This document shows positions 893-39,695 of a DNA stretch of 42,582 bases, piece after piece. This DNA comes from Acetobacteraceae bacterium. GTDB lineage: Bacteria; Pseudomonadota; Alphaproteobacteria; Acetobacterales; Acetobacteraceae. Position 1 is the first letter of the stretch; each line of letters opens with the position of its first letter. The notes under the pieces were generated by a model. The model saw only the letters and a list, made by a program, of their open reading frames with translations, ran no database searches and was not told the origin of the DNA. Position numbers and translations under genes: made by a program. The stretch spans positions 1 to 42,582 of the forward strand of contig SHWL01000018.1 in the NCBI GenBank assembly GCA_009693865.1, read 5' to 3'.

Positions 893-1483
893 ATGGACCG
901 CATCGCCACAATCACTCGTACCACAACGGAAACCGATATCAGCGTCACCCTGAACCTCGACGGGTCCGGGAAGGCCGATATTGCCACCGGCATTGGCTTT
1001 CTCGATCATATGCTGACGGCATTGGCTCGTCACGGGCTGTTCGACCTGAAGGTCCGGGCCAAGGGCGATCTGCATATCGACTTTCACCACACGACCGAGG
1101 ACGTCGGCATCGTCATTGGTCAGGCTTTCGCCCGGGCTATCGGCGACAAGCGCGGTATCCGGCGCTTCGGGCAGGCATTGATTCCGATGGACGAGACCCT
1201 CGCCGAGGCCGCCGTGGACATTTCCGGCCGCCCATTCCTGGTTTGGAACGCCGATTTCGGCCGCCCGAAGATCGGCGAAATGGACACCGAGCTGTTCGAG
1301 GAATTCTTCCGCGCGTTGGCATTCAACGCGCTGATCACGCTGCACATCAACCGGCGCGCGGGTCATAACGCGCATCATGTCGCGGAAGCGTGCTTCAAAG
1401 CCGCCGCTCGCGCTCTGCGCATGGCGTCTGAGTTCGACCCGCGGGCGGGAGATGCGGTTCCGTCGACCAAGGGGTCGCTGTAA
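893..1483 (+). CDS. hisB: imidazoleglycerol-phosphate dehydratase
   Basis: HisB, 196 residues, removes water from imidazole-glycerol phosphate to give imidazole-acetol phosphate, the sixth step of histidine synthesis, in the cytoplasm. Visible signatures are FLDHML near residue 36, HHTTEDVG near residue 65, and [13 protein letters not shown] near residue 157, which carry the histidines and acidic residues of the two manganese sites. The C-terminus PSTKGSL is the normal family ending (PSTKGxL), so the gene is complete. It is the monofunctional type without the phosphatase domain of enterobacteria. Its TAA at 1481-1483 sits inside the first unit of a 25-base tandem repeat. The rest of the cluster (DUF2628, hisH, hisA, hisF, hisE) follows on the same strand. 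Confidence 0.98.
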
Positions 1484-1614
1484 AATGACCTCCAAGGGGT
1501 CGCTGTAAAATGACCTCCAAGGGGTCGCTGTAAGATGACCCTAACGGGGTCGCGGTCAAATGCCTCAAAGGGTCGCGGTGAAATGACTGCCAACGGCGTT
1601 TCGTGAAAATCTGG
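1471..1614 (+). repeat. 25-base tandem repeat spanning the hisB stop codon and the hisB-DUF2628 gap
   Basis: Units run 1471-1495, 1496-1520, 1521-1545, 1546-1569 (24 bases), 1570-1594 and a degenerate sixth from 1595. Units 1 and 2 are identical, unit 3 has five changes, and units 4-6 are progressively more diverged. The unit core is GGGGTCGCTGTAAAATGACC. The first unit encodes the conserved HisB ending KGSL-stop, so the array most likely grew by duplication of the hisB 3' end rather than by insertion. Each early unit can also form a weak 6-base hairpin (GGGGTC with GACCTC, one G-U). There are no unique spacers, so it is not a CRISPR array. Confidence 0.9.
1485..1606 (+). other. relay of three mini reading frames linking hisB to the DUF2628 gene
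   Basis: After the hisB TAA (1481-1483) one base follows and then ATG at 1485, reading MTSKGSL-TAA (1485-1508). One base later an ATG at 1510 gives the identical MTSKGSL-TAA (1510-1533). One base later an ATG at 1535 opens a 23-residue frame ending in TGA at 1604-1606. That TGA overlaps the GTG start (1603-1605) of the DUF2628 gene as GTGA. An AAGGGG stretch about ten bases before the first two ATGs could act as a weak ribosome binding site. The arrangement is seen directly; that ribosomes use it for termination-reinitiation is inference. It may only be a by-product of the repeat. Confidence 0.4.
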
Positions 1615-1980
1615 ACGGCACACGAAAAGCCGCACGCTCCGCCCCTGTTGATACGGGAGGGTTTCTCGTGCGGGGCGCTGGTGTTCGGCCCGTTCTGGCT
1701 GGCCAGTCATCGGGCTTGGCTGTCTGCGGCCGTCGCGTTGTTGCTTGAGGTGCTGATCCCGGTCCTGACCCGCCCGCCCGCCTCCCTGGTGCTGACAGCG
1801 GGGTTTGCCGTTTGGCTTGGCTTTTCCGGACGTGACCTGGTGCGCTGGTGCATCGCTCGCCGCGGTTATCTGGAATCCAGCGTCATCGCCGGACGGAACG
1901 AGGACGAGGCCCAGGTCCGGCTGTTGACGGCCCGCCCGGATCTTGTGGTCCGGTCGATGGTGGCGGAGGCGGCGCCGTGA
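1603..1980 (+). CDS. DUF2628 domain small membrane protein in the his cluster
   Basis: A 125-residue protein of the DUF2628 family, function unknown. The N-terminus (MKIWTAHEKPHAPPLLIREG) followed by FSCGALVFGPFWLASHRAWL is the family pattern, and two hydrophobic segments (about residues 25-55 and 62-82) suggest an inner-membrane protein with a short cytoplasmic tail. The GTG at 1603 is chosen because family members begin with this motif; it has no clear ribosome binding site of its own and overlaps the stop of a preceding mini frame. Its TGA overlaps the GTG of hisH (GTGA), so translation is probably coupled. DUF2628 genes are, to my knowledge, found next to hisH in related bacteria, but a role in histidine synthesis is not established. 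Confidence 0.85.
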   Translation: MKIWTAHEKPHAPPLLIREGFSCGALVFGPFWLASHRAWLSAAVALLLEVLIPVLTRPPASLVLTAGFAVWLGFSGRDLVRWCIARRGYLESSVIAGRNEDEAQVRLLTARPDLVVRSMVAEAAP

Positions 1981-2612
1981 AAATCGCGGTCGTCGATTAT
2001 GGCAGCGGCAACCTTGCCTCGGCCTCGCGCGCACTGGCGCTCGCGGCGGACCGGGCCGGCATTACCGCCTCGGTCCTGGTGACCGCCGATCCTGACCTGG
2101 TCGCGGCATCCGACCGGATCGTGCTGCCAGGTCAAGGGGCCTTCGCCGATTGCGCGCGCGGGTTACACGCGGTGGTGGGGATGTGGGACGCGATCGATCA
2201 TACCACACGCCGGGGAACACCGTTCCTCGGTATCTGCGTGGGGATGCAACTCATGGCCCAACGCGGTTTGGAACATGCCATCACCCAAGGCTACGGCTGG
2301 ATCGCGGGCGACGTAGCGGAGATGGCCGCCCCTGGGCTGCGCCTGCCGCAGATGGGCTGGAACGGATTGGACTTCGAGCCCGGCGCGCATCCGCTACTGG
2401 AGGGTTTACATCCAGGCGATCATGCCTATTTCGTGCATAGCTATGCGCTGGAGGGGGGCGATCCGTCGCAGACGATCGCGACCACCGATTACGGCGGACC
2501 CGTTGTCGCCTTCGTCGCCGCCGGCAATAGCGCTGGCACGCAGTTTCACGTCGAGAAGAGCCAGGAGGTTGGCATACGTATCCTGACCAATTTCCTGCGC
2601 TGGACCCCCTGA
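1977..2612 (+). CDS. hisH: imidazole glycerol phosphate synthase, glutamine amidotransferase subunit
   Basis: HisH, 211 residues, hydrolyses glutamine and passes ammonia to HisF, which makes imidazole-glycerol phosphate and AICAR from PRFAR. The class I glutaminase triad is visible: Cys87 in GICVGMQL, His191 and Glu193 in FHVEKSQ. The N-terminus KIAVVDYGSGNL is the family start, which fixes the GTG at 1977, although the frame is open further upstream. The start overlaps the DUF2628 stop by four bases (GTGA). The hisF partner is at 4036 in the same cluster. Confidence 0.97.
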   Translation: MKIAVVDYGSGNLASASRALALAADRAGITASVLVTADPDLVAASDRIVLPGQGAFADCARGLHAVVGMWDAIDHTTRRGTPFLGICVGMQLMAQRGLEHAITQGYGWIAGDVAEMAAPGLRLPQMGWNGLDFEPGAHPLLEGLHPGDHAYFVHSYALEGGDPSQTIATTDYGGPVVAFVAAGNSAGTQFHVEKSQEVGIRILTNFLRWTP

Positions 2613-39397: not shown

Positions 39398-39429
39398 CTT
39401 GCGCGCTCTCTCAGACCCGGTATGAGTGC

Positions 39430-39610
39430 GACAGACACAGGTGGCCCGCAAGGGCTGAAACGGGAATCGCCGAAAGGCGGCCGCCCCCGCGACTGTAGCG
39501 ACGAGTCCGGACTCAACCATGCCATTGCCCAGGGGAATAAAACCCGGGCGAGAAGGCGGGTCCGGATGATGACTCGTGAGCCAGGAGACCGGCCGGTGTC
39601 GAGACCGCGC
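39430..39610 (+). promoter_or_regulatory. cobalamin (AdoCbl) riboswitch upstream of btuB
   Basis: The leader contains the conserved parts of the B12 riboswitch in order: AGGTGGCCCGCAAGGGCTG, AACGGGAA at about 39459-39466, GCCCCCGCGACTGTAGCGAC (39483-39502), a variable arm, and the B12 box GAGCCAGGAGACCGGCC (39578-39594). Flanking GACAC and GGTGTC can close the first stem. A short CCGGG/CCCGG hairpin at 39643-39658 and the GGAGAA site just before the btuB ATG may be the switching part. It should shut btuB when cobalamin is plentiful. Exact ends are approximate. Confidence 0.92.
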
Positions 39611-39695
39611 GCGTGCCGTTGGGGCGGGGTGTACTCATGGCGCCGGGGAGAAACCCGGATGCGGGAGGTCGGCATATGACCGATGGAGAACCCGC

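Follow-up and report, generated by a model that had tools for sequence, protein, structure and literature searches.

Mini-cistrons that may relay ribosomes from hisB to DUF2628 in an Acetobacteraceae his operon

Results

The stretch of DNA analysed here (the window; 42,582 nucleotides, contig SHWL01000018.1 of assembly GCA_009693865.1) belongs to a draft genome of 4.48 Mb in 209 contigs with 81% completeness. At the start of the window stands the his operon; the genome is of the Acetobacteraceae type, and Rhodopila relatives are among the nearest named records. On the forward strand, hisB, which encodes imidazoleglycerol-phosphate dehydratase, occupies 893–1483 (Pfam IGPD, E 1e-68; stop TAA at 1481–1483) and is 80–93% identical to its in-genus relatives. 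The DUF2628 gene follows at 1603–1980 (Pfam PF10947, E 6.9e-10); its GTG start has no SD-like sequence of its own, and the start position is conserved among relatives. Downstream, hisH (1977–2612, forward strand, Pfam GATase) begins with a GTG at 1977 that overlaps the DUF2628 TGA (1978–1980) by 4 nt.

A 25-nt tandem array of 4.9 copies (1467–1587, forward strand; Tandem Repeats Finder) spans the end of hisB and most of the gap before DUF2628, and 63 of 71 bases are identical when it is shifted against itself by one period. Each of units 1–3 contains the last 15 nt of hisB, AAGGGGTCGCTGTAA (AAG GGG TCG CTG TAA), followed by ATG, and the SD-like AAGGGG of the hisB tail (1469–1474, forward strand) accordingly recurs at 1494–1499 and 1519–1524. 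The result is a series of mini-ORFs on the same strand: the first (1485–1508) encodes MTSKGSL from an ATG one base past the hisB stop to a TAA at 1506–1508; the second (1510–1533) encodes the same peptide between ATG 1510 and TAA 1531–1533; and the third (1535–1606) has 23 codons and a TGA (1604–1606) that overlaps the DUF2628 GTG by 4 nt. In unit 4, TCA (1556–1558) replaces TAA, so that mini-ORF 3 reads through, and unit 5 is placed 23 nt after unit 4; together, these two changes let mini-ORF 3 continue as far as the TGA that overlaps the DUF2628 GTG. Measured from each stop codon, the successive starts lie at +4, +4, +4 and -1, so stop and start overlap or stand a few nucleotides apart at every link, and the mini-ORFs span the 119 nt from hisB to DUF2628. 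Direct reading of the sequence agreed to the base with the original prediction of a stop-start chain running from hisB through DUF2628 to hisH. Mini-ORF 3 also contains an in-frame internal ATG...TGA (1583–1606, forward strand, MTANGVS), which a comparison of the window with locus L090 shows as the counterpart of the single mini-ORF MYPKGVL in the relative G028.

Several other identities for the gap were rejected. It is not a dispersed repeat or a transposon end, because the array occupies a single place in its own genome, where further matches to it amount to 9 places of 14–24 bases or with 3 mismatches, against 8 for a reversed-pattern control. A known RNA element was discarded because no Rfam family matched in the gap; the sole Rfam match in the window, at 39,422–39,611 of the forward strand, is to the cobalamin riboswitch family (RF00174, 83.9 bits). 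A stable hairpin was likewise set aside, the fold z-score of the gap being -1.38.

The chain is easily produced by its own repeat. It arose in 2.7% of 2000 dinucleotide shuffles of the gap, and it stayed intact in silico at every unit copy number tried, from 0 to 6, which bears out an earlier warning that a 25-nt period repeats any stop-N-ATG automatically. When single bases were changed in silico, the chain was likewise intact after 328 of the 357 substitutions, 89 of the 119 deletions and 332 of the 476 insertions, and restoring the unit-4 codon to TAA again left it unbroken. Because TAAAATGA carries a stop in the first frame, an ATG in the second and a TGA in the third, ribosomes arriving in any of the three frames would end at the DUF2628 start.

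The final GTGA, which the original prediction took to be the one feature that the period leaves unexplained, has an explanation in ancestry. Twenty-seven of the 31 other same-genus loci have a plain 4-nt hisB/DUF2628 overlap with no insert, and among 192 distinct loci the DUF2628 start lies at -1 in 104 and at +2 in 43. The overlap is therefore ancestral, and it is this junction that survives as the GTGA at the end of the window's chain. Since the GTGA is inherited and the chain follows from the unit, the evidence beyond chance is comparative and does not come from the window alone. In the remaining four same-genus loci, DUF2628 starts 16 or 22 nt past the first base of the hisB stop, and in all four a mini-ORF (MYPKGVL, MAGVPVA, MGGVPGR or MTTGAP) starts on the hisB stop and ends in a TGA that overlaps the DUF2628 start. 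An overlap or a bridge is kept in 31 of 31 same-genus relatives; across the family, 9 of 35 gaps are unbridged.

On the tree, the window forms one clade with G031, which has no inserted unit, and with G028, whose insert copies the hisB tail once, over 23 nt (TGATG TAT CCC AAA GGG GTG CTT TGA AAA). Related strains had been proposed as a check on whether copy number varies as the link to DUF2628 is kept, and these three bear on it: with zero units, one unit and the array, respectively, all retain the stop-start overlap at DUF2628. The last unit of the window, ATG ACT GCC AAC GGC GTT TCG TGA, aligns with the G028 mini-ORF, and we infer that the two have a shared origin, in one event or two. The array is an outgrowth of the hisB 3′ end and the ancestral overlap, by which a plain junction was expanded.

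We then surveyed Acetobacteraceae-like loci, a proxy defined by a hisB identity of at least 66% to the window. Genes were counted as gapped when the downstream start lay at least 10 nt beyond the stop, and a gap was called bridged under a strict rule of restarts (ATG, GTG or TTG) at -1 to +4 of each stop; expected numbers came from random composition-matched gaps with length jittered by 1 nt. Loci with no DUF2628 match near hisB were excluded (35 in the first gap summary). That summary picked starts by a motif rule under which some rows (e.g., L031 and L229) differ from a later rule, and both rules yielded the same 11 bridged hisB-DUF2628 rows. Bridges were found in 11 of 15 hisB-DUF2628 gaps (2.93 expected) and in 15 of 20 DUF2628-hisH gaps (4.56 expected). 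The row-wise probabilities of 3e-8 and 1e-8, respectively, assume independent rows and are too strong because some rows have a common origin. When the gaps were mapped by Fitch parsimony onto a tree built from hisB, hisA, DUF2628 and hisH (178 rows), 9 gap origins fell at the first junction and 17 at the second, about 26 in total, of which 21 were bridged only, 4 unbridged only and 1 mixed. The binomial tail for 21 of 26 is 1.3e-7 at a bridging probability of 0.3, 2.6e-5 at 0.4 and 1.3e-3 at 0.5. The phase of the next gene is 1 after single relays, 0 after the double relay of L173 and 2 after the triple chain of the window, which matches what a working relay requires.

Neighbouring junctions were scored at relative positions 13–160. 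There, 6 of 18 hisH-GNAT gaps (1.4 expected) and 6 of 31 GNAT-hisA gaps (1.7 expected) were bridged, and no bridge was found in the 44 hisA-hisF gaps (0.4 expected). The hisA-hisF junction is mostly not of the overlap type (15 of 93 rows overlap), and hisF starts mostly stand in ATGC/ATGT-type contexts. Outside the Acetobacteraceae-like loci, hisB-DUF2628 was bridged in 1 of 9 gaps with L057 left out, or in L048 and L057 of 12 in another listing.

Some individual junctions were unusual in structure. The DUF2628-hisH gap of G028 (L266, about 370 nt) holds a four-step chain of overlapping ORFs and a 26-nt duplication beside the hisH start; the shuffle chance of this chain is 0.23, so it is not significant alone. 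In another genus, the corresponding gap of G046 (L137, about 100 nt) is a tandem array of period 24 with an ATGA in each unit. The hisB-DUF2628 gaps of L198 (76 nt) and L187 (64 nt) have in common a palindromic GGGTCCAGGGCAGAGCCCTGGCC-type repeat, across which an open bridge runs. In L194, hisB ends in TAA where its relatives have XTGA, and the expected DUF2628 start is occupied by ATA, with no usual start codon seen there.

Some of the gaps can be traced to tandem duplication across the junction. At hisB-DUF2628, the periods are 25 (window), 23 (G028) and 14 (L228); at DUF2628-hisH, they are 26 (L097, L163), 14 (L138, L173, L261) and 11 (L044), besides the 24-nt array of L137. The other bridged gaps are inserts with no visible duplication. 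A period of 2 mod 3 turns a 4-nt overlap into a relay, 0 mod 3 extends the downstream gene and 1 mod 3 severs the link. Among 23 duplications over the stop codon at four overlap-type junctions, 13 had a period of 2 mod 3, 8 of 0 mod 3 and 2 of 1 mod 3, the last being those of the window and L236; at control sites in coding sequence 300 nt upstream, the corresponding numbers were 0, 34 and 6 (n = 40). The window's period of 25, which is 1 mod 3, is compensated by its stop-N-ATG spacing.

Duplication has also moved the SD signal. The anti-SD duplex energy is -7.1 kcal/mol ahead of each of the starts at 1485, 1510 and 1535, and -1.7 at the DUF2628 GTG of the window, which is weaker than both the background median (-3.0) and the median for 139 overlapping relatives (-7.1). 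Because the mini-starts have the strong signal and DUF2628 the weak one, the SD has been displaced from DUF2628 by the duplication. Of the bridged DUF2628 starts at this junction, that of the window has the weakest SD. The hisH start of the window has a strong SD-like sequence (-9.5). Strong SD-like sequences occur at unbridged starts (L219, -12.6; L235, -9.8; L238, -9.8; L215, -9.3; L033, -7.9) and at bridged ones (L192, -11.3; L266, -9.5 at hisH), and the unbridged L039 and L229 (both -2.6) and L232 (-3.0) have none.

Other results weigh against relays. Under the strict rule, four hisB-DUF2628 gaps (L215, L229, L232 and L235) and five DUF2628-hisH gaps (L033, L039, L193, L219 and L238) are unbridged, with a looser bridge in L232, whose ATG lies 4 nt past the hisB stop. 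Seven of these nine (L033, L193, L215, L219, L229, L235 and L238) are nevertheless in phase 1, so the phase bias cannot come from relays alone and a further bias must exist, for example an excess of one-base deletions over insertions, or decayed relays. Additionally, with length and flanks fixed, 7 of 10 bridged gaps (relative positions 10–76) still had a bridge in more than 69% of shuffles; a single relay is chance-prone once its start sits on the first stop and its TGA on the second start.

As a genome-wide control, we called genes with a simple gene caller in 842 kb of G000, G031 and G006 (473 same-strand pairs); the first seven genes that it called, within the his genes and past them, agree with the ORF list of the window. 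Strict bridges were found in 16 of 275 control gaps of 10–500 nt, a mild excess over a rough expectation of 6.8. The control is imperfect, as its gaps mix operon and non-operon pairs and are not restricted to former overlaps. In gaps of 10–60 nt from the three genomes, phase bias was absent (34/30/26). Relays as a general feature of gapped pairs in these genomes were therefore dropped; the few bridges and the lack of phase bias indicate that the pattern of the his operon is not a general property of gaps.

Discussion

Overall, after comparing the window with its relatives, we consider it probable that the array acts as a series of relay mini-cistrons, keeping hisB and DUF2628, and through DUF2628 perhaps also hisH, translationally coupled. 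In the ancestral state, the hisB stop and the DUF2628 start overlapped as GTGA, and the SD-like AAGGG in the conserved hisB tail (STKG) would have served DUF2628. Tandem duplication of the junction then separated the two genes. Every copied unit carries an SD-like sequence of its own together with a stop and an ATG, by which a ribosome could restart at each step: on ending hisB, it would restart, read seven codons, stop, restart and finally arrive at the stop that overlaps the DUF2628 start. The original proposal of a ribosome relay thus gains comparative support from the kept overlap and the excess of bridging in the gaps of the operon, and it loses the final GTGA as independent support, the overlap being inherited. 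From this pattern, we infer that the chain is used by ribosomes and maintained by selection.

A simpler account, which we regard as somewhat unlikely, is that slippage multiplied the hisB tail neutrally, the chain being a by-product of repeating stop-N-ATG and DUF2628 being translated otherwise or hardly needed. The automatic appearance of the chain at 0 to 6 copies, the many single relays with a high shuffle probability and the existence of unbridged gaps all fit this account, as does a search of 397 family genomes that, at E 0.001, did not find DUF2628 in 134 of them, by which the gene is dispensable in places. However, it predicts neither the excess of bridges at hisB-DUF2628 and the neighbouring junctions, nor the scarcity of 1-mod-3 duplications, nor the fact that the genome-wide control shows nothing of the kind. 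It is the comparison between loci that leads us to favour coupling through relay mini-cistrons.

Two further explanations give the mini-ORFs another use. They might provide ribosome cover, their translation protecting the transcript in the gap from being cleaved or, through Rho polarity, terminated before hisH, hisA and hisF. Long bridged gaps of 64 to 370 nt would suit such a role; however, many bridged gaps measure just 10–25 nt, which is too short for polarity effects, and cover would not need a precise stop/start overlap at the downstream gene, so we consider this improbable. Slippage of the array might instead tune the output of DUF2628 relative to hisB. The placement of a tandem array in a start region and the copy numbers of 0, 1 and about 5 in three relatives are in line with tuning, but the chain is insensitive to copy number in silico, and of all the explanations this one appears to us the most improbable.

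Returning to coupling by relay, the recurrence of bridging in related operons suggests that relays allow ribosomes to continue from one gene to the next where an insertion has come between them. We speculate, tentatively and with more doubt than for the window itself, that operons may repeatedly have withstood insertions at stop-start overlaps by means of relay cistrons, frame-compatible duplications or inserts becoming bridging mini-ORFs. The window would then hold an advanced, self-mending element made from the end of the upstream gene, one that is robust to copy-number change and to most single-base changes and that leads all three reading frames to the start of the next gene. If this is true, there is a simple rule for separating coupled genes with their coupling kept, namely stop-free inserts of 2 mod 3 or stop-N-ATG units; tiny unannotated ORFs in operons would be explained as relays and not as peptides; and such arrays would offer a natural way to learn how often in succession a bacterial ribosome can terminate and restart.

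The closest known system is coupling at overlapping genes. Huber et al. 2023 (PMC10666635) report that E. coli gene pairs are coupled by termination-reinitiation at ATGA/TGATG overlaps, that moving the genes apart by 14 nt costs 40–80% of the coupling and by 38 nt nearly abolishes it, and that in reporters the final 15 nt of the upstream gene are enough for it. The his operon shares the stop-start overlaps with these pairs, the ancestral hisB/DUF2628 junction being of their commonest, -4 nt type, and the array unit repeats precisely the last 15 nt of hisB. It differs from the pairs described there in that several mini-ORFs stand between the genes, over 119 nt, and the internal links of the window are stop-N-ATG with no overlap. 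In the axe-txe operon, a two-codon minigene is reported to raise downstream translation in cis, depending on distance and frame, with mRNA stability as the suggested mechanism (PMC8708949); it is likewise a mini-ORF within an operon, but a single one of two codons.

A review (PMC12548453) names short ORFs as a means of delivering ribosomes and describes how mycobacterial interspersed repetitive units (MIRUs; original paper, Supply et al. 1997) enter start codons, their ORF being coupled at -4 nt. Our array resembles the MIRUs of that review in being a small-ORF repeat at a start codon with -4 nt spacing, such that its insertion would do little harm, and differs in that MIRUs are dispersed and mobile-like, whereas it arose by duplicating the end of hisB locally. 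The window chain does have a small ORF whose ends meet the flanking genes, but the array lacks many interspersed genome copies. MIRU units are about 46–101 bp long, and the window unit is shorter, at 25 nt. Because overlap coupling, delivery by short ORFs and MIRUs are already described, the relay's mode of action is known in kind. We found no paper on tandem mini-ORF relays in an open-access library, which is no proof of absence. Compared with these systems, what seems new is a relay array that is built from the upstream gene's own end and is indifferent to copy number and frame, together with the recurrence of relays at the former overlaps of one operon.
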